A stretch of 64,000 nt of DNA, from positions 1 to 64,000 of the forward strand of contig JAQTZE010000007.1 in assembly GCA_028687935.1 (NCBI GenBank). Direction: 5' to 3'. The notes under the pieces are model-generated. The model ran no database searches. It was not told where the DNA came from and was given only the letters and a program-made list of their open reading frames with translations. Both the position numbers and the translations under genes were made by a program. Source of the DNA: Sulfurimonas sp. GTDB lineage: Bacteria; Campylobacterota; Campylobacteria; Campylobacterales; Sulfurimonadaceae. This document shows positions 35,587 through 60,084 of the stretch, in pieces (within the stretch, counting starts at the first letter, position 1; each line of letters opens with the position of its first letter).

Positions 35587-35666
35587 GATAGTTTGAGGCT
35601 GACTTAAAGTTCATCCGATACTATAACGTACTAAAAGTGCCCTTTATTGCCGGCCAAAGGAGTACC

Positions 35667-37082
35667 ATGCTACATACTCTTTCTATAAGATCAAAAGAAC
35701 ATCTCTTGCAACTTTTAGTTTTTGCCATCGGTGTTGCAATATGGTTTGCCCCAGTCCCAGAAGGCCTAAAACCTCAGGCTTGGCATCTTTTTGCTATTTT
35801 TATCACTGCGATTTTGGCAGTGATAGTAAACGCAACTTCTATTCTCACCTCTTCAATCATCGCTTCATCACTCGCTGTTTTGACGGGTACACTTACTCCA
35901 CAGCAGGCATATAGCGGATTTGCAGAAGATTTTATCTTACTCATTATCGTTGCGTTTCTTATCGCCAGGGGTGTTATCAAATCAGGTCTTGGTAAACGCA
36001 TCGCCTTTCTTATCATCAAAAAATTTGGTAAATCAACTCTGGGACTCTCCTACTCCATTATCGCAGCAGATATGTTTATCTCTCCTGCGTTTCCAAGTAA
36101 TACAGCCCGCTCAGGCGTACTCTTTCCTATCGTAAATGCACTCGCCATAGACAGCGGTTCAAAGATAGCTGATGGAACAAGAAAAAAACTCGGTTCATAT
36201 CTCATGATGTCTTCTATGGCAGGACTTACACTCTCCTCAACACTTTGGCTTACAGCGATGGCTGCAAATCCTGCAGGAGCAAAAATGGCGCAAAGTTATG
36301 GGGTAGAGATAAGCTACGGCTCATGGGCTTTGGCTGCTTCTTTACCAATATTACTACTCTTTTTTCTCGTGCCTTGGATACTTTTTAAGATCTATCCGCC
36401 AGAAATTACTAAAACACCTAATGCACCAAAAATAGCACAAGAAGCTCTCACAAAAATGGGAAAAGTAAGCAAAAATGAGTGGACCATGGCGGCAACATTT
36501 ATTGGTATGGTCTTTTTGTGGGTGATGGCTGAATCTTTTGGATTTAACAAAACAGCCGTTGCGTTTATGGGTCTTGGAGTTTTGATGCTGAGTAATATCT
36601 TTACTTTAGAAGATATGAAAGAAGAAGGCAATGCCCTTGGAACGCTCATCTGGTTTGCTATACTCTTTTCTCTGAGTGTCAATCTCGATGCACTTGGCTT
36701 TATGTCTTGGATAGGGTCTAATATATCAGCGATGCTAGTTGGGCTCTCTTGGCCTTTTGTCTATCTCTCTTTGATACTCTCTTATGTGTTTATCCACTAT
36801 TTCTTTGTTTCACAAACAGCGCAGATGCTGGCTCTTTTTTCTGTCTTTTTGGGGGTTGGGATAAACACAGGAGTTCCTAGTGAGCTTATGGCTTTGATGC
36901 TTCTTTTTGCGACCAACTTCAACGCTATCATCACACCGCAAGGCTCTTCAGCAAATGTTATCTATGTGGGAAGCGGCTATATTGAAGCTGGGGAAATTTA
37001 TAAAGTAGGCGGTATTATCACGCTTGTCAATACCCTTGTATTTTTAAGTGTGGGAAGTGCGTGGATACTTTTTATCAGCTAA
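35667..37082 (+). CDS. SLC13/DASS family anion transporter
   Basis: Starting at the ATG behind AAAGGAGTACC, the protein has 471 residues and about 11-12 transmembrane helices. FPSNTARSGVLFP (about 141-153) is the first Ser-Asn-Thr substrate/sodium motif, and ITPQGSSANVIYVGSGY (about 425) the second. Such carriers import dicarboxylates, sulfate or phosphate with sodium. In an autotroph, dicarboxylate or sulfate are both plausible. Its stop codon is one arm of the 37080-37100 hairpin. Confidence 0.85.
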   Translation: MLHTLSIRSKEHLLQLLVFAIGVAIWFAPVPEGLKPQAWHLFAIFITAILAVIVNATSILTSSIIASSLAVLTGTLTPQQAYSGFAEDFILLIIVAFLIARGVIKSGLGKRIAFLIIKKFGKSTLGLSYSIIAADMFISPAFPSNTARSGVLFPIVNALAIDSGSKIADGTRKKLGSYLMMSSMAGLTLSSTLWLTAMAANPAGAKMAQSYGVEISYGSWALAASLPILLLFFLVPWILFKIYPPEITKTPNAPKIAQEALTKMGKVSKNEWTMAATFIGMVFLWVMAESFGFNKTAVAFMGLGVLMLSNIFTLEDMKEEGNALGTLIWFAILFSLSVNLDALGFMSWIGSNISAMLVGLSWPFVYLSLILSYVFIHYFFVSQTAQMLALFSVFLGVGINTGVPSELMALMLLFATNFNAIITPQGSSANVIYVGSGYIEAGEIYKVGGIITLVNTLVFLSVGSAWILFIS

Positions 37083-37100
37083 ACGCAACTCTTGCGTTTA
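37080..37100. terminator. Hairpin formed by two inverted AAACGCA heptamers, ending in both stop codons
   Basis: TAAACGCAA (37080-37088) and TTGCGTTTA (37092-37100) form a perfect nine-base stem with a three-base loop CTC. The left TAA is the stop of the transporter on the plus strand, and the right TTA is the stop of the CitE-like gene on the minus strand. Its position makes it a bidirectional terminator. The arrangement closely parallels inverted uptake sequences used as terminators in Neisseria and Haemophilus. Confidence 0.85.
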
Positions 37101-38036
37101 ATCCACTAAATCATGTAAAAGCGCCAAAGCACCTTTATAAATAGGCTCATCAATAAAACCATACTCTTCATCCACAAAGCCGCTCACACCCATCTCCTGA
37201 TGCATTTCAAAGAGTTTGATGATGATCTTGGCTCTGTTTATCTGTGCTTCTTCATTGACAAATATGAGATTGACCATCTCTACTTGCTTGGGTGAGATGC
37301 ACCCTTTTGCGTCATATCCCATTCCTTTTTCCAAAGAGAGCCATTTGCCAAATTCTACGAGATTTGTAAACTCCTGATAGACAAAAGAGACAGGTTTTAT
37401 ACCCATAGATTTACACGTCACAAGAAAATGTGAAAGCATATAAAGCATAGTCGGATTGTGGCGCTCGATGAGGTGATGTGAGAGTCTCATATCTGCAAAA
37501 AGATCAAAAATCCCCAGATAAAAAGTAGTGATTTTTTGACTTATTGCAAGTGAAGAGAGATTATGCCACGCCTCAGCGGTCTCTATAGAGAGGTGCAACT
37601 CCGTATCCTCGTTTAAAAGTGCCAAAACATTTCTCACCTGTTGCACACTTCGTATCTTTGGAACACGAATCGCATCTGGCATAAACTGGTTGAGATAGGT
37701 AATCTCTTCATAACCGCCCTCATCGAGTGCATTGACACGCACGACCAGTTTTTTGTCTGATTTTTGATGCAAAGACAAGAAAATAGCGCATAATACAAGG
37801 GCGAAAGGCTTCTCCTCTTTACTGACACCATCTTCGAGATTGAGCATAATACAATCTGCTTCTAGACTCTCTATTTTTGAGAGATGTTTGATATTGTTAC
37901 AAGAGAGCATAAGCACTGAAGAGAAGTTTTTATTGGCATTGAGTGTTCTTACTCTTGGAGTGGCTAAGGCATCAAGAGCCGCTAAATCTCTATTGGCGTA
38001 CGCTTCTTCTATTTTTTCAAAAAAATTATTTTGCAT
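37098..38036 (-). CDS. HpcH/HpaI (CitE-like) aldolase/lyase family protein
   Basis: This 312-residue TIM-barrel protein has LMLSCNNIKHLSKIESLEADCIMLNLEDGVS (about 41-72), RVNALDEGGYEE, and VPKIRSVQQVR, the metal- and CoA-ester-binding layout of CitE-type lyases. It lacks obvious citrate lyase partners. It could cleave malyl-CoA, citramalyl-CoA or a similar thioester; the substrate is unknown. The last part (about 220-312) has GYDAKGCISPKQV, usual for the family. It is followed by the cytochrome gene upstream on the same strand (11-base overlap). Confidence 0.8.
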   Translation of the reverse strand: MQNNFFEKIEEAYANRDLAALDALATPRVRTLNANKNFSSVLMLSCNNIKHLSKIESLEADCIMLNLEDGVSKEEKPFALVLCAIFLSLHQKSDKKLVVRVNALDEGGYEEITYLNQFMPDAIRVPKIRSVQQVRNVLALLNEDTELHLSIETAEAWHNLSSLAISQKITTFYLGIFDLFADMRLSHHLIERHNPTMLYMLSHFLVTCKSMGIKPVSFVYQEFTNLVEFGKWLSLEKGMGYDAKGCISPKQVEMVNLIFVNEEAQINRAKIIIKLFEMHQEMGVSGFVDEEYGFIDEPIYKGALALLHDLVD

Positions 38037-45557: not shown

Positions 45558-46406
45558 TTACTTCAAAAAATACTCTTGTTCAAGAGTCCTTCCTATGCAC
45601 TTAACAGTTTCAATAAGAGATGCAATACTGGGAGTATTTCCGATAAGAGTTTGATATTTCTCATCATGCGTCTTGGACAGGTCTTTTATACCTTTTCTCT
45701 TTAAAAGACTTTCTATGTTATTAGGTATAAAGAAAGAGCCTCGGGTACCCACTATCGGCTCGTACTCTGTTTGATAGATAAATATTCCTGCCAAATCTAT
45801 ATCTCCAAAGTGTAGATAATCATTACTGATTTTAGATAGTAAGTGTCGTAGACTCTTACTTCTTTCAATAAAAAGTATTTTCTTATCTGGAAAAATAGTT
45901 CTGTCTTTTAACTTCCCGCTAATGTTTTCAAAGTTTTCAACACCAACAATTAAAATATCTTCATCGAAAGTAATATGGTTCTCCTTATGAACAAACAATG
46001 CACATCCTTTAGGAAAGCCTAGTTTTACTTCTTCTCCATTAATTTTCACACTTATATTGTCAGGACTATCCATATGAAGACCACTTTTAGGATTTACACT
46101 CTTTAACTTTGTATTGATGCCAAGCTCTGAAAGCTCTGACCTAGATAGTCCATCAGCAGTAAGAGCTAAGATGTAATTACGAAGATTATCTATGAATAAA
46201 TAGTTTGCTAAATAGTTAGTAAATGCATCTTGATTGCCCATAGAAATGTTAAATGAGTTTCTAGTTACTTTGACTTCCATAAGCGAACCTATTTCAATCA
46301 TTTCGTCTAATGTTTTTATAAAGGATTTTCCAAAAGAACTTCTCTTGACAGTCTCGCCCTGCTCTATTAAAAGCAAGACTCTAACATCTCTAAGATTTAC
46401 ACTCAT
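45558..46406 (-). CDS. jetD: Wadjet JetD (MksG): TOPRIM-type nuclease
   Basis: The 282-residue protein has a C-terminal TOPRIM domain: a strand followed by VENFEN with the metal glutamate (about 156), and HFGDIDLAGI with the paired aspartates (about 197-206). It ends in LEQEYFL, as JetD proteins do. The first 140 residues are helical/winged-helix-like. In Wadjet, JetD nicks or cuts the small circular DNA that the JetABC condensin loads and loops. It is shorter than many described JetD proteins. Its ATG overlaps jetC by four bases. Confidence 0.85.
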   Translation of the reverse strand: MSVNLRDVRVLLLIEQGETVKRSSFGKSFIKTLDEMIEIGSLMEVKVTRNSFNISMGNQDAFTNYLANYLFIDNLRNYILALTADGLSRSELSELGINTKLKSVNPKSGLHMDSPDNISVKINGEEVKLGFPKGCALFVHKENHITFDEDILIVGVENFENISGKLKDRTIFPDKKILFIERSKSLRHLLSKISNDYLHFGDIDLAGIFIYQTEYEPIVGTRGSFFIPNNIESLLKRKGIKDLSKTHDEKYQTLIGNTPSIASLIETVKCIGRTLEQEYFLK

Positions 46407-49400
46407 TGTCTCATTGCACCCTGTATTATCTTTGTTTTTCCATTGATTATTTTATAGTGATATATGCATTTATAAAAAGCAGGGATCTTTACATCAGGAG
46501 CAGCATTGAGAAATAGTATTCCTGCATTGTTGGCAAACTTGATAACCTCTCGCATGTTTCTTTGGTCAATCTTTCCGATTTCGTCTAGCAGTACATGAAC
46601 ATTCGCCTCTGTGTTTTTACGAGTCATTGATAGAACTGTATCAAGCATTGCAACATAGAGTAGAGTTTTAACAATAACAGAAGTACCCTCAGAACCAATT
46701 TGTTTTCGAGCCATAATCCACCCAGTAGATTTACCATTTTCAACAGCCATCATCTCAACACTAAATGTGTCAGCGACAGTAATCTCTTTCTCTTTTTCAG
46801 TTTTTAGATAATCCAATAACTTATCAAACCTATCTAGAATAAGATGAGTGGATTTTGAACTCTTAGCGGGTTCTGCGAATAAAGATTTAGCGTCACCATA
46901 AGGAATATCAATTTCGCTTATCGCCTGAAGCTCTGAAAGTATTCTATTTTCGCTTTTTACATACCTTAATCCTATATCATCTAGTACTGGAATTTCTCTA
47001 ACGGCGGAAGAGAGGCGTTTGCTTATTTTATCAATGCTTGATTTGATCTTCTCACTTTGGGTATTAAGATTGCCATACCTTTGCGATATATTACTCTGTA
47101 TCCCTTTGATAGATTTTGCAACAAGTTCTTTTGTTTGAGAGATACCACCACCCTGCATAAACATCTTCAAACTTTCAATTGAGGAGATTGTTTCAGAAGT
47201 AGTTTTGTTCTTATAAGTAAACCACACATGCTTATCATTACCTATCTTGCCTACTAGCCTTGTAAGAGCACTATCTAGTGAAAAATATAACTCTCTATTA
47301 GAGTTTAATAGCGATGATATTTTAGAAAATACTGCATATATGTTTTCAGCTTCAATCGCGTTTGTATTTTCCAATAGTTTATTCTCAACTAGGTATTTTT
47401 TATAGTCTGGAGTATCGAACACTTCTTTTGTTCTCTCTATAGCTTTTTTTGTGCTATCAAATTTCTCTTGTGCTACTCTCACCTTTTTCTCTAGTGCTTG
47501 AAGTTCTCCATAAATGAGAAGTTTTTGTGTCTTACTTTCTTCATCAGCCTTTGTAAATTTAGCTTGATTTATAGACAGTTCTTCTGATAGTTGTGGGATT
47601 TTATCAAAAAACTTTTTGTCTTCTCTCCAGACTGCTACCTCATTAATATACTGCTTCACTTTATCTAAAACTTTTAACGATTCGTCAAGGGCTGTCCTAG
47701 CCTTATGAAGCTCTTCTTTACTAACGCCACCATCCAAAAGTGCTTTAGTTTTGTTTTCTTCTATTTCTAAGACTTTGGCTTTAAGTGCTGTATCGAGTTT
47801 TAGTATTTCATCTTTTAGTTTTTCTTTGAGTGATGATATCTCAGCAGTTGAATTCTTTTTATACTCGTGAAACTCATCTTTTGTTTTTTGAATACGAATA
47901 GAGATAATATTATTTAGCTCATCTTTAGTGTTCTCGGACTCCTGTAACTCTTTTACTTTCTCGGTTAACTCTTGTTCTGCTTTTTTAATTGCATCTTTCC
48001 ATGCTTGAAGAGAATTTGTTACTTCAAAGTGCAACTCATCCTTAGAAGAGACAATAAGTGTTTTTAATTTTAGGATTTTACCTTCAAGCTCCTCAATGTC
48101 ATTGTTTGCAAAGAAACTATCTTTTTGGAGTTTAGCCTCAGCTTTAGTGAGCTCTTCTTTTTTCTCAGAGAGTTGTTTGTCAACATCTAGTCTTAGCTTT
48201 ATAATTAGATTTTTTTGTTCATTAATCTTTGCAGAGATGTTAGCATGAGAGTACTCCGACTCTTCAAGGTTCTGAGTATTGATTTGAAGTCCGTACATGC
48301 TCTCTATCTGTTGTGAACTTGAAGGCTCTAACACCTTGCTGTATAAAACTTGATCCTTAAGGAGTGATGTAAGTGTGAACTCAACATCTGCATGATTTTC
48401 CCTGATGTAGTGAAGTAGAGTGTCTTCTGATACATTAAGTAGTTTTTGGAGTGTCGCAATTTCTTGTTCATGAGGCTTTATCATTAAGCGATAGCGCTCC
48501 TGCGCAGAAATGTCAGCATCCTCTATTCTTCTTTCAATGCCTTTTCTTTGCTCAAGTAGTGATTGTTGTTTCTCTTGTGTTTGACTAATCTGTGCTTCTA
48601 AAGCCAAAAGTTCAGCCTCAAGCTTGCTAATATGTGCAATTAACGCATCTACTTTTTTACTAAATGGGTTATTTGCCTTTATTAGTGCAAGAGATATATT
48701 GGCCTTTGACTTTAGCTCCTGGTACTCTTTTATTTTTTGATTAGCCTCTCTTAATTTGGCATCAAATAGATCGGTAATACTTTTAATATCAGATTCTACT
48801 TTAGACTCTTTTTCTTCTAGTTGATCTCTAATTTCTTTAATCTTATTCTCTGTTATTTCAGAAAGTGCTTGCTTATTAGATGATGCATGTGTTTGTGCCT
48901 GCAGTAACTGATTGTCGTATAGCTGCGTAACATTATGCTGTTCGCCAACAAGAGCCGTGTATGTTACATTAGCATCCTTATGATTAGATTCAAATATAGA
49001 CAAGCTATCAACAAGAATTACTTTTTGCATAAAGCTGTCATCGTATTTTGCTTTTAAACTCTCAGCTCTTTGTAATTCTCTTTTAGAAAATTCGTAATTA
49101 CTCTTAGCCTCATCCCTACTTGCGTTTAGTGATGCCATTATTTCATCAAATTGTTCTTTTTTAACTTGCTGCTCTTTGTTTGAATTATGTAACTTTTCTT
49201 CAAAGTTTGCTAGGTTTGATGTGTTAAATTTATGATTCGCAACTGCTAGTTTCATTTTCGATACAAGCTCATCTTGTTCTTGAGTAAACTGTGTATATTC
49301 TTTAAATATACTAGCTATTAAACTCTTTTGTGTTTCATAAACCTTAATTGCATAATAGTCACTCATAGAATCGTATAGCTGCTCTTTTATATTGGCAATA

Positions 49401-50053
49401 TCTATTGTTTCATCACTACCAAAACTATTAGAGATTGCTTTTTCAAATGAACCTGTTTCAACACGAGAGCTTAAAAATATACTTGATTGTACATCATGTA
49501 TTAAATCATAATTCCCCTCTGCTTTCATAAGTGCAAAATCTCTAAACTCTTTAAATGTTTTGTCATTTTTAAGTGAATCTCCGCCGTAGAGTATTTCTCT
49601 ATATTTACTTGATGAAATAACTTGAGAACTTGGCTTAAATCCTTTGGCAATAAAACTTGAGAGTATTTCCTCTCTTTCTTTAATTGTTTTTCCATCTTCC
49701 AAAACAAGCGATTTTAAATCCAAATCCATATCAAGAGACATAAATCTATAAGCTATCTGATTACCATTTGCATAGGTCATCAGAAGAGTATTTCCATAAA
49801 TTCCCTCATACTCGTAGAATGCATATGAGTTCATAAATGGATATGTATATTTAAGCCAGTTGTCTTTTCCTTCTCCTCGATGAATACCTAATTTATCACT
49901 CTTGCTTGAGCCATAGAAAAAGAGTACCGCCTGCATAGTAGTTGTTTTGCCGGCTCCATTTGTACCAGTAAAAAGAGTGTTTCCTGAAACATCAACCTCT
50001 CCATAAAGAAATCTACCTGTATTTACAAATGTTATTTTTTTAAGCCCTATCAT
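46403..50053 (-). CDS. jetC: Wadjet JetC (MksB): SMC-like condensin ATPase
   Basis: The 1216-residue protein has Walker A (TGTNGAGKTTTM, about 29-40) and Walker B (VHVLLDEIGKID, about 1155) at opposite ends. Very long coiled coils (about 270-470 and 600-900) lie between, and a hinge-like middle near 540-590. A signature-like GTSVIVKTLLYV precedes Walker B. This is the MksB/JetC layout that extrudes DNA loops and senses plasmid topology. It is coupled to jetB (one-base overlap) and jetD. The sequence contains only one AAACGCA, at 49121. Confidence 0.9.
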   Translation of the reverse strand: MIGLKKITFVNTGRFLYGEVDVSGNTLFTGTNGAGKTTTMQAVLFFYGSSKSDKLGIHRGEGKDNWLKYTYPFMNSYAFYEYEGIYGNTLLMTYANGNQIAYRFMSLDMDLDLKSLVLEDGKTIKEREEILSSFIAKGFKPSSQVISSSKYREILYGGDSLKNDKTFKEFRDFALMKAEGNYDLIHDVQSSIFLSSRVETGSFEKAISNSFGSDETIDIANIKEQLYDSMSDYYAIKVYETQKSLIASIFKEYTQFTQEQDELVSKMKLAVANHKFNTSNLANFEEKLHNSNKEQQVKKEQFDEIMASLNASRDEAKSNYEFSKRELQRAESLKAKYDDSFMQKVILVDSLSIFESNHKDANVTYTALVGEQHNVTQLYDNQLLQAQTHASSNKQALSEITENKIKEIRDQLEEKESKVESDIKSITDLFDAKLREANQKIKEYQELKSKANISLALIKANNPFSKKVDALIAHISKLEAELLALEAQISQTQEKQQSLLEQRKGIERRIEDADISAQERYRLMIKPHEQEIATLQKLLNVSEDTLLHYIRENHADVEFTLTSLLKDQVLYSKVLEPSSSQQIESMYGLQINTQNLEESEYSHANISAKINEQKNLIIKLRLDVDKQLSEKKEELTKAEAKLQKDSFFANNDIEELEGKILKLKTLIVSSKDELHFEVTNSLQAWKDAIKKAEQELTEKVKELQESENTKDELNNIISIRIQKTKDEFHEYKKNSTAEISSLKEKLKDEILKLDTALKAKVLEIEENKTKALLDGGVSKEELHKARTALDESLKVLDKVKQYINEVAVWREDKKFFDKIPQLSEELSINQAKFTKADEESKTQKLLIYGELQALEKKVRVAQEKFDSTKKAIERTKEVFDTPDYKKYLVENKLLENTNAIEAENIYAVFSKISSLLNSNRELYFSLDSALTRLVGKIGNDKHVWFTYKNKTTSETISSIESLKMFMQGGGISQTKELVAKSIKGIQSNISQRYGNLNTQSEKIKSSIDKISKRLSSAVREIPVLDDIGLRYVKSENRILSELQAISEIDIPYGDAKSLFAEPAKSSKSTHLILDRFDKLLDYLKTEKEKEITVADTFSVEMMAVENGKSTGWIMARKQIGSEGTSVIVKTLLYVAMLDTVLSMTRKNTEANVHVLLDEIGKIDQRNMREVIKFANNAGILFLNAAPDVKIPAFYKCIYHYKIINGKTKIIQGAMRQ

Positions 50054-50649
50054 TACTCTTCATCCTCTATCTCATTCTTTTTTGCAACTTCATTATTTAT
50101 TCTCTGTACTGATTCATAAAACTCTGTTAGGTAATTATATGAAGAACCAACGAGATAGTTATTGAATATGTCGTCAAGCGGTATCATGCATCCGAATTTA
50201 CTAAGTGTATCAAATATGCTCACGCATCTTTCTGTGAGCGTTTTACCTTTAATACTACGCATATTTTCAAGTTCTTCCCTTCGTAAAGTATCTCCCTTGA
50301 GAGCTATTTCGAGTTCTGAGGGTGAACCTTTCCATCCTACATTGAAGTTAGGAAAAACACCTAAGACTAGAGTTATAATGTCTAGCATGCTAATCATCTG
50401 ATTCATCCTGTGCTCTTTTGCTGAATCAACAAGGTCTTTAATATAAAAAAGAAAGAAACCATCGCCCTCTTCCAAATCGTAACCAAGAGGCTCAAAGTAA
50501 GCTCTAAGAGTAGGAAGATAACTCTCACAATCTATAAACATCTTTCTTTGCTCTGGTTCAGGATGATTATCAATAATAAAGTTTCCACCTCTTAGAGTGT
50601 CAAAGATAGCTTTTGTTGTGCTTGGAAGTCTATTGGTATCTATCATCAT
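50053..50649 (-). CDS. jetB: Wadjet JetB (MksE): kite subunit
   Basis: The 198-residue winged-helix protein (LPSTTKAIFDTLRGGNFI at the start, then FEPLGYDLEEGDGFFLFYI) has the size and placement of the MksE/JetB kite subunit that bridges the condensin kleisin and head. Its ATG overlaps the jetA stop by four bases. The family call depends mainly on position between jetA and jetC. Confidence 0.85.
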   Translation of the reverse strand: MMIDTNRLPSTTKAIFDTLRGGNFIIDNHPEPEQRKMFIDCESYLPTLRAYFEPLGYDLEEGDGFFLFYIKDLVDSAKEHRMNQMISMLDIITLVLGVFPNFNVGWKGSPSELEIALKGDTLRREELENMRSIKGKTLTERCVSIFDTLSKFGCMIPLDDIFNNYLVGSSYNYLTEFYESVQRINNEVAKKNEIEDEE

Positions 50650-51878
50650 AATATTGAGTCCTGTAATGTTTTAGCTGTGTTAGAAATTGAATAAGCACTC
50701 ATGCACCTATAACCATAAACCATCTCATCCTCTTGTGTAAAAACAAGTTCTTGCGAGTTAGTGATAATTGTGTCCAGATAAGCTGCAAGTAGCTCTTCTC
50801 CATCAAGCTCTGGTTCTTTATGCTGTAAGTATGTTAAAAAACTACCCTCTTGCTCTTTTGCATCTATATATTCATAAAGAATATCACTATAATCAACTGT
50901 CACAATAATGGCTTCTTCCAAGAAATCATCTTCAATAGGTTCATTTAAGTTCGCTTTTTTCTCAATCATATTTGGCTTATTTAAACTGGCCAAATACCTT
51001 AGCTCAAACTCTTCTTCGTTGGCATAGTCTGGATAAAATTTAATCTGGACATTTCTTTTCTCAACAACGGACAAACCAGAAAGCAAGGGTTCGCGTTTGG
51101 CGTTAAAAATAAGCTCATACATATTTGTTTTGCTACGGATCTCTTTTCTGTCACTCAGCTCTTTTAGCTCAACAAGATGTTTATGAAAATGAATACTTCT
51201 CTCTGTATCCCTAATATAATCAATAACAATTTGTGTCGTTTTAATAAGAGTATCTCTTATGGTGAGTATATATTCTCCTACTCGGAACCTTTGGAGGTCT
51301 AGAGCATTATCATTTATCTGTTCAAAGAACTCCAGATGAACTCTCATGTTCCTGCTTATAAATTCAAGAGTTTCATAGAATTCATCAAGCATTTCATTAT
51401 AACCTTTGAGTTCTTGAAGTTTTTCTCTATTCGTAGCAGCGGAACGATATGTAAATTCAACATGATGTTGCATACTCTTGAGCGAATCTAAAAGATTATT
51501 GGGAATTCTTCTAAGATATCTATGTATATTTCTTGTGTGCTTGTGTGCATCTCCACTGACCTCAAACGAAGTGCGATAAAGCTCTATTGATTTTGATATC
51601 TTAAGAAAAATGTTTTTATAGTCAAAAAGCTCTTCATCATAATTATCAACCAACTGAGCCTCTAAAAACCTTGTAAGATGTTCCCCTAGTAAAACTTCAT
51701 TGTTGAAAATTTCAATAAGATTATTTGCTTCTAATTCTTCAATAGAAATATCATCAATCAAATTTCTCGCATTGGAAAGACTCATCTGCCTATTTTTACT
51801 CTCAAAAACAGCATTGAGAAAATCCTTTTTAGTTCTAAGCACAGAAATTAGCTCTAAAAAGTTTCTAGCTCTAGTCAT
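50646..51878 (-). CDS. jetA: Wadjet JetA (MksF): kleisin-like subunit
   Basis: The 410-residue protein is the first gene of the operon. It is largely helical: an N-terminal winged-helix-like part (LISVLRTKKDFLNAVFESK), a central helical bundle (about 90-250), and an acidic C-terminal half (about 300-360). This fits the MksF/JetA kleisin of Wadjet. Which Wadjet subtype it belongs to cannot be decided by eye. AAAGG lies eight bases upstream of its ATG. Confidence 0.83.
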   Translation of the reverse strand: MTRARNFLELISVLRTKKDFLNAVFESKNRQMSLSNARNLIDDISIEELEANNLIEIFNNEVLLGEHLTRFLEAQLVDNYDEELFDYKNIFLKISKSIELYRTSFEVSGDAHKHTRNIHRYLRRIPNNLLDSLKSMQHHVEFTYRSAATNREKLQELKGYNEMLDEFYETLEFISRNMRVHLEFFEQINDNALDLQRFRVGEYILTIRDTLIKTTQIVIDYIRDTERSIHFHKHLVELKELSDRKEIRSKTNMYELIFNAKREPLLSGLSVVEKRNVQIKFYPDYANEEEFELRYLASLNKPNMIEKKANLNEPIEDDFLEEAIIVTVDYSDILYEYIDAKEQEGSFLTYLQHKEPELDGEELLAAYLDTIITNSQELVFTQEDEMVYGYRCMSAYSISNTAKTLQDSIL

Positions 51879-58371: not shown

Positions 58372-60084
58372 ATGAGTATTCCTATTTATACATATGATGC
58401 GATTGTCGTTGGTGCAGGTCTTGCGGGATGTGCAGCAGCGAGAGAGTTACAAAACGCAGGAAAAAAAGTTGCTGTAATCACAAAGCTTCACCCACTTAGA
58501 AGTCATTCTGGTGCAGCACAAGGTGGCATAAACGCAGCGTTTAGTGACAAAGACAGTGTAGAGTTACACGAATTTGATACGGTAAAAGGTTCAGACTATC
58601 TTGCTGATCAAGATGCAGTTGAATTTATGTGTCAAAAAGCACCTGAGACTATCAGATGGATAGAAAGAATGGGAGCTGCGTTTAGCAGAACTCCAGATGG
58701 AAAGATTGCACAACGCCCTTTTGGTGGTCAATCTTCTCCTCGTGCATGTTTTGCAAAAGATAGAACAGGTTTGACGCTTTTACAAACTATCTACGAACAA
58801 GCACACCGTGCAGGTGTAAAGTTTTGGGATGAGTGGTATGCTGCGGATATCATCTATAAAGATGGAAAAGTATCGGGTGTCGTTGCGTTTAATATCCGTG
58901 ATATGCAAACAGTTATCTTCAATGCAAAATCTGTAATGTTCGCAACAGGCGGATATGCACGTTCATACAAGATTAACTCTAACGCACACGCAAACACAGG
59001 TGATGGTCTCTCTATCGTAGCACGTCATGGTCTTCCACTCGAAGATATGGAGTTTGTTCAGTTTCACCCATCTGGTTTATCAGGTAATGGTGTTTTGATC
59101 TCTGAAGCTGCTCGTGGTGAAGGTGGAAGACTTTTCAACTCACTTGGCGAGAGATTTATGGAAAAATACGCTCCAAACGCAATGGAACTCGCTTCACGCG
59201 ACGTTGTTGCTCGCGCTATTTTAAATGAGATCAGAGAAGGACGCGGTGTCGGTCCAAGAAAAGATGCTGTGTTTATCGATGTAACACACCTTGGAAAAGA
59301 TCTCATTATGCAAAAGCTTCCAGAGCTTCGTGAACTAGCTATCACATTTTTAGGTCTTGATATGATCAAAGAGCCTATCCTTATCTCTGCAACTGCACAC
59401 TACTCTATGGGTGGTATTCCGGTTAATATCGCAGGAAATGTCCGCAAAAACAATGAAGAGTTTGTAGAAGGTTTCTATGCTGCAGGTGAATGTTCATGTG
59501 TATCCGTGCATGGTGCAAACCGTCTTGGTGCAAACTCTGTGCTTGAAGCACTCCTCTTTGGTCGTTTTGTTGGTAAGACAATGGTCAAAGAGATTGATAC
59601 TATCGAACTCCGTCCCGCAACTGTTTCTGATGCTGATACTGCTCTCGCTGAGATGCAGTTTATCCTTCAAAATAATGGGGATGAAAGCATTACAGTGCTT
59701 CGTGAAGAGTTACAACAATGTATGACAGCAAACGCAGGTGCGTTTAGAACAAAAGAGACACTTGAAATTGCTATTGCTACAATAAAAGATTTACGTGCAA
59801 GATTTCAGCATATTCGTATCAAAGACAAATCAACAGTTTTCAATACTGAACTGCAAGAAGCTATCGAATTTGGCCACATGCTTGACTACTCTGCGTTTAT
59901 CGTAGAGAGTGCTGTTGCAAGAAATGAGAGCCGTGGTGCACACTATAGAGAAGATTTTGAAACACGTGATGATGAAAACTTCTTAAAACACACAATGGCT
60001 TATATGGATAACAACGGAAATATCGAACTTGATTACATGGATGTTGTTCTAGGCAAACATGAGCTTAAAGCTAGAAACTACTAA
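58372..60084 (+). CDS. sdhA: Fumarate reductase/succinate dehydrogenase flavoprotein (type E)
   Basis: The 570-residue flavoprotein has VVGAGLAGCAAAREL (about 12-26), the FAD-histidine region RSHSGAAQGGINAAF (about 44-58), the substrate arginine/histidine stretches SPRACFAKDRTG and HYSMGGIPVN (about 343), and GANRLGANSVLEAL. It has no Tat or Sec signal, so it acts in the cytoplasm, unlike periplasmic Mfr of Campylobacter. It may run either way; in the reductive TCA cycle it would reduce fumarate. It leads an operon with sdhB and sdhE. Confidence 0.92.
   Translation: MSIPIYTYDAIVVGAGLAGCAAARELQNAGKKVAVITKLHPLRSHSGAAQGGINAAFSDKDSVELHEFDTVKGSDYLADQDAVEFMCQKAPETIRWIERMGAAFSRTPDGKIAQRPFGGQSSPRACFAKDRTGLTLLQTIYEQAHRAGVKFWDEWYAADIIYKDGKVSGVVAFNIRDMQTVIFNAKSVMFATGGYARSYKINSNAHANTGDGLSIVARHGLPLEDMEFVQFHPSGLSGNGVLISEAARGEGGRLFNSLGERFMEKYAPNAMELASRDVVARAILNEIREGRGVGPRKDAVFIDVTHLGKDLIMQKLPELRELAITFLGLDMIKEPILISATAHYSMGGIPVNIAGNVRKNNEEFVEGFYAAGECSCVSVHGANRLGANSVLEALLFGRFVGKTMVKEIDTIELRPATVSDADTALAEMQFILQNNGDESITVLREELQQCMTANAGAFRTKETLEIAIATIKDLRARFQHIRIKDKSTVFNTELQEAIEFGHMLDYSAFIVESAVARNESRGAHYREDFETRDDENFLKHTMAYMDNNGNIELDYMDVVLGKHELKARNY

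Follow-up and report, generated by a model that had tools for sequence, protein, structure and literature searches.

An abundant strict word in a Sulfurimonas genome, a candidate self-DNA uptake sequence, and its facing pairs at convergent gene ends

The genome of the sulfur-oxidising bacterium studied here, a Sulfurimonas species (assembly GCA_028687935.1), is filled with copies of the heptamer AAACGCA, two of which face each other in a hairpin at positions 37080-37100 of the analysed stretch (contig JAQTZE010000007.1, positions 1 to 64,000; this 64,000-nucleotide stretch is called the window below). The word is a true genome-wide signal at the level of the DNA. In its full form, YAAACGCAR, it is probably this species' dialect of a self-DNA uptake word, and facing pairs of it would be kept at convergent gene ends as weak terminators or 3'-end hairpins. 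An initial annotation of the window had regarded the hairpin as the best local evidence that the word is functional, an assessment that did not hold: enrichment in all six frames, conservation, depletion from islands and the existence of dialects are far stronger evidence.

The word AAACGCA as a genome-wide signal

The window has 131 copies of AAACGCA, compared with 9.6 in dinucleotide shuffles. The 2.58 Mb genome contains 4,758 copies, or one per 542 bp, spread equally over the two strands (2,407 forward and 2,351 reverse); the reversed word, taken as a control, is present in 740 copies (383 and 357). The orientation of the word is independent of GC skew, with a forward fraction of 0.51 where the skew is positive and 0.49 where it is negative (Spearman 0.11, p 0.16). 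With the proteins and the codon usage given, the excess over the synonymous-codon expectation is 4.4- to 10.2-fold in each of the six classes of frame and orientation. The core is strict, as single-mismatch variants at positions 1-6 are at most 1.2-fold enriched and C or G is only weakly tolerated at position 7. The full form YAAACGCAR follows from a strong bias towards G or A at position 8 and a preference for C or T at position 0. Neither the core nor the full form is self-complementary, which sets them apart from palindromes of the HIP1 (highly iterated palindrome 1) type.

Three relatives retain the word at 77, 70 and 45% of aligned sites, compared with 32, 27 and 21% for all heptamers. 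Four word-poor, island-like stretches, for three of which the gene identities were judged by eye, contain 0-2 copies each, which is the chance level, while the rest of the window holds 130. The four- to tenfold excess in six frames, the conservation, the tight limits on mismatches and the chance level in the island-like stretches mean that the word is no artefact of codon usage, in agreement with the initial annotation.

One of these stretches is a cluster of four genes on the reverse strand of the window (45558-51878), with a single AAACGCA copy in 6.3 kb. It resembles a Wadjet (Jet) defence system, with a JetD-like match in PADLOC (E 4e-8) and a weak JetC-like one; no PADLOC match was found for the remaining two genes of the cluster. 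The other three are low in G+C. By eye, L159:1-13000 carries an integrase with restriction-modification genes, L109:1-11866 is transposon-like with a DndC-like gene and L160:9883-20000 combines an integrase gene and one resembling type I restriction genes.

Words of other Sulfurimonas and the uptake machinery

AAACGCA is abundant in some Sulfurimonas only; others carry other abundant words, such as AACACGCAA and TTCCACATGCCAA. The word CCACATGC is found in genomes G144, G152, G168, G123, G128, G122, G127 and G142, with an extended form near ATTTCCACATGCCAA, and reaches 1,564 copies in G144 (control, 12). No tested genome is high in both AAACGCA and CCACATGC. Genome G143 alone carries AACACGCA, in 992 copies against 17 of the reversed word. 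G151, G138 and G134 gave weaker leads, namely AAACGCC(A), CTCACGCAG and CTAAACGC, respectively. On a tree built from a single protein, the CitE-like one, the word labels need 12 changes, compared with 24.3 when shuffled. For some of the dialect genomes, the evidence comes from about 11 kb. The Sulfurimonas words thus look like mutually exclusive dialects that cluster by phylogeny, as the dialects of Neisseriaceae uptake sequences do.

Close pairs are also a feature of the genomes with CCACATGC, in which 189 facing and 204 opposed pairs are present where 20 are expected, about a tenfold excess. At L046:5897-5945, two facing copies of the word proper to that genome, TTCCACATGCCAA...TTGGCATGTGG, come after the 3' end of the same CitE-like gene as the one next to the hairpin in the window. 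A palindrome, TACATGTA(G), is over-represented in a manner reminiscent of HIP1 in L051, L220 and L221 and in L012, L213 and L214; in the 51 kb of L051 it was counted 44 times, both strands included, against 3.7 expected.

A reader of the word would be sought among the components of the competence apparatus. The gene comEC was found in 29 of the 29 Sulfurimonas genomes tested and, being in every one of them, was rejected as a discriminating marker. The genome under study has eight pilin-type genes, two of which stand in tandem beside priA (Table 1). Most relatives have related pilins near comEC, with conserved amino-termini and divergent carboxy-termini. Presence or absence of the priA-linked pilins was likewise discarded as a discriminator: they are in nearly all genomes, and the divergence of their carboxy-termini is not decisive. 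In Campylobacter jejuni, the gene for the pilin-like protein Cj0683, without which DNA uptake does not begin, immediately precedes priA (PMC10046745). This match in gene position to cj0683 makes the tandem pilins candidate receptors for the word.

Facing pairs at gene ends and the hairpin at 37080-37100

Unless the whole genome is mentioned, the tallies of pairs and gene contexts that follow cover 71% of it (1.83 Mb), with genes called by a purpose-built open reading frame caller based on codon scores. Some of the stretches were picked for holding inverted pairs, and the presence of 53 of the 63 facing pairs in 71% of the bases corresponds to a bias of about 1.2-fold. These 63 pairs, with gaps of up to 20 nucleotides, are those of the whole genome, for which the word counts predict 46. 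Within the 1.83 Mb, the four orientations of close pairs occur 53, 48, 58 and 58 times, with 35.8 expected for each. Close pairs of all orientations lie mostly within genes, and in the subsets tallied their gaps are in codon phase; the bulk of them is therefore a by-product of the density of the word in coding sequence. For the facing pairs, 44 of 53 are intragenic and six are located between genes that meet tail-to-tail.

Convergent gene ends are nevertheless special. Per kb, AAACGCA is found 4.3 times at convergent ends, 2.0 times in genes, 1.4 times in tail-to-head and 0.8 times in head-to-head intervals. The six facing pairs are spread over 151 convergent gaps, where about 0.2 would be expected at average density and 1.0 at the raised local density. 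The share of pairs at convergent ends is 6/53 for facing pairs against 3/164 for the other orientations (p 0.008), and perfect stems holding a facing pair amount to 5/53 (9%) at convergent ends against 21/843 within genes (p 0.015). In an earlier subset of 665 kb, four facing pairs, the one at 37080-37100 among them, were found at 31 convergent gaps. Perfect stems are common at convergent junctions (46 of 172, with a mean of 1.8 after shuffling), and in seven of the 46 the stem includes the greater part of the word. The facing pairs at convergent ends have A and T outside, the orientation preferred by known uptake sequences. The genome-wide pair search that the initial annotation had proposed thus gave a clear enrichment at convergent ends, while the overall excess is mild and mostly intragenic; the architecture of inverted pairs it had likened to that of Neisseria and Haemophilus stands as an enrichment of a class, but is a weak hallmark. 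Terminator use of facing pairs would accordingly be a class effect at convergent ends, and a minor one in this genome.

Only two places in the window have inverted copies separated by 60 nucleotides or fewer (Table 1). The pair at 37080-37100, which reads TAAACGCAACTCTTGCGTTTA, forms a perfect stem of 9 bp with a loop of 3 nucleotides, and its two ends are the stop codons of the convergent genes for an SLC13 transporter and a CitE-like protein; hairpin, stops and gene identities are all as initially annotated. Its predicted free energy (RNAfold) is -7.7 kcal/mol when folded alone, and -8.7 and -10.6 kcal/mol with flanks on the two strands. The sharing of bases between the stop codons and the word had been presented as notable. 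In the genome, 19 of 1,040 TAA stops continue as ACGCA, with 16.5 expected from TAA in general; an overlap at chance makes the presence of both stops inside the word unremarkable, and the idea that stop codons are part of the hairpin design was rejected.

Table 1. Coordinates of the word pairs, convergent genes and pilin genes discussed in the text (window positions unless a locus is named).
Feature	Position	Strand	Remarks
Perfect hairpin TAAACGCAA-CTC-TTGCGTTTA, two facing AAACGCA copies	37080..37100	none	sequence, fold
AAACGCA, left arm	37081..37087	+	word search; next base A (AAACGCAA)
AAACGCA, right arm (TGCGTTT on +)	37093..37099	-	word search
TAA stop of the sodium:sulfate symporter gene	37080..37082	+	shares bases with the word
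TAA stop (TTA on +) of the CitE-like gene	37098..37100	-	shares bases with the word
Sodium:sulfate symporter (SLC13/DASS type)	35667..37082	+	PF00939 Na_sulph_symp, E 4e-119; alternative start at 35637 possible
HpcH/HpaI aldolase / citrate lyase (CitE-like)	37098..38036	-	PF03328 HpcH/HpaI, E 2e-23
Facing pair AAACGCA-GG-TGCGTTT	59730..59745	none	gap of 2, the coding phase typical of intragenic pairs
Two tandem pilin-type genes	L139:12635-15490 (G000 C24)		immediately upstream of priA and some 8 kb from comEC; tandem pilins at G000 C24:14525-15490

In the nearest named relative, L001 (Sulfurimonas isolate STC_122), the CitE-like protein is 92% identical. At the orthologous gene end of L001 and L002, the stop codon of the CitE-like gene is immediately followed by a hairpin of another sequence, CAAACGGACTTGTTCGTTTG. 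This element has one copy in the genome under study and is thus not a common repeat there, while hairpins resembling it are present at two of its convergent junctions (L112:13923 and L113:17957). No Rfam families were found in the window.

A putative uptake system and its alternatives

The explanation we favour would work as follows. A pilin of the competence pilus would read the sequence and bind word-bearing DNA during natural transformation, so that the word would mark conspecific DNA for uptake. Imported core-genome DNA would recombine, and words would accumulate and persist. The thousands of copies on the two strands readily give rise to facing pairs, and where one happens to lie in the short interval separating two convergent genes, transcripts from either side could fold into a hairpin. 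Some of these pairs would be retained to stabilise 3' ends or as weak terminators acting in both directions, and the pair at 37080-37100, a candidate for either role from its sequence and predicted fold, may be one of them.

Several observations weigh against this explanation. The small genome-wide excess of pairs is common to all orientations. Genes for ComEC and pilins are also present in genomes in which no word was detected, and uptake by C. jejuni needs RAATTY methylated by CtsM and no bare word (PMC10046745). As to the hairpin itself, the terminator scan called no rho-independent terminator at 37080-37100. The hairpin is without a T-tail: its three T's belong to the stem, which is followed by AATCC or AGCTG, unlike the G+C-rich stem plus T-run of such terminators. 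It is also missing at the orthologous gene end in L001, L002 and L003, the three nearest relatives, all of which have the word. Of the terminator function initially assigned to the hairpin, what survives is the enrichment of its class at convergent ends.

The same lack of conservation and of a T-tail, together with the chance-level stop overlap and the similar excess of all pair orientations, would be expected if the hairpin were a chance by-product of word density with no role in termination. This is a serious possibility, if in our view the less probable one; it is compatible with the favoured explanation of the word, and the single hairpin may by itself be neutral. Against chance stands the class as a whole, since facing pairs at convergent ends exceed expectation and outdo the other orientations.

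The main rival for the word itself is a HIP1-like element with no part in uptake, whose maintenance would be due to a chromosome-binding protein, an orphan DNA methyltransferase, or a mutation bias or repair process directed by methylation; the hairpins would then be by-products. HIP1 of cyanobacteria likewise saturates genomes, mostly in coding sequence, and is tied to orphan methyltransferases (PMC4390886), and L051 and L012 have an excess of the palindromic TACATGTA. HIP1 is a palindrome, however, and AAACGCAR, AACACGCAA and TTCCACATGCCAA are not; furthermore, the variants resemble uptake-sequence dialects in being short, strict and mutually related words that change from clade to clade, with facing pairs at gene ends. 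We consider this rival unlikely. In density the two words are similar, HIP1 being present of the order of once per 500-1,000 bp. A Chi-like or KOPS-like (FtsK-orienting polar sequence) motif of recombination or segregation could be just as short, abundant and over-represented in core genes, but is very improbable in view of the equal strands and the independence from GC skew. Preference for the codon pairs AAC-GCA and GCG-TTT, in whose frames 70% of coding copies lie (in the first 1.05 Mb read), is rejected as the origin of the word, which is in excess in all six classes and enriched between convergent genes, while reversed and neighbouring words are mostly not in excess.

Comparison with known systems and significance

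Uptake words that act by their sequence have been established, to our knowledge, in Neisseriaceae and Pasteurellaceae only, and text searches of the open-access literature found no publication describing them in Sulfurimonas or Campylobacterota. The DNA uptake sequences (DUS) of Neisseriaceae are abundant strict words with variants that follow phylogeny and with inverted pairs at terminators (PMC3630211). The Sulfurimonas words share with them the thousands of short, strict copies on both strands, the phylogeny-following dialects, the enrichment of facing pairs between convergent genes with A and T outside and the near-absence from acquired DNA (PMC3630211; PMC1852404). Differences are the phylum, Campylobacterota, the presence of more than one unrelated-looking word family in a single genus and the putative nature of the uptake role. 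Hairpins of N. meningitidis with gaps of up to 10 nucleotides are tail-to-tail in 94 cases and intragenic in three (PMC1852404, Table 4), in contrast to the mostly intragenic AAACGCA pairs; same-direction close pairs, nearly absent in Neisseriaceae, are common in this Sulfurimonas genome. The uptake signal sequences (USS) of Pasteurellaceae are likewise abundant on both strands, with a minor share of terminators from facing pairs (PMC1852404), and the enrichment of both facing and opposed pairs in the CCACATGC dialect is a further likeness. No long A/T-rich extended motif, as in USS, was seen around the Sulfurimonas word, and its uptake role is putative. Compared by eye, AAACGCAR is unlike DUS (GCCGTCTGAA) or USS (AAGTGCGGT), as the initial annotation had stated, a relatedness that bears on common origin and not on function. 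With C. jejuni, Sulfurimonas shares the pilin-type gene that adjoins priA; the former reads a methylated, degenerate sequence, while the sign in the latter is an over-represented, non-palindromic word (PMC10046745).

The abundant Sulfurimonas words are thus candidate self-DNA uptake words in the Campylobacterota. We are inclined, with some reserve, to go further and propose a sequence-based uptake system in Sulfurimonas that is independent of those of Neisseriaceae and Pasteurellaceae, with YAAACGCAR, AACACGCAA, TTCCACATGCCAA and probably more words as its dialects, in which fast-evolving pilins encoded beside priA would read the words and words would have been recruited into gene-end hairpins. 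If this is true, uptake words would have a third, independent origin, and the several dialects inside a single genus would reveal how such words emerge and how they switch. The words would also define gene-flow groups among ecologically important bacteria of vents and groundwater, and with the hairpins at gene ends, the reuse of uptake words as signals for transcription would have recurred independently.
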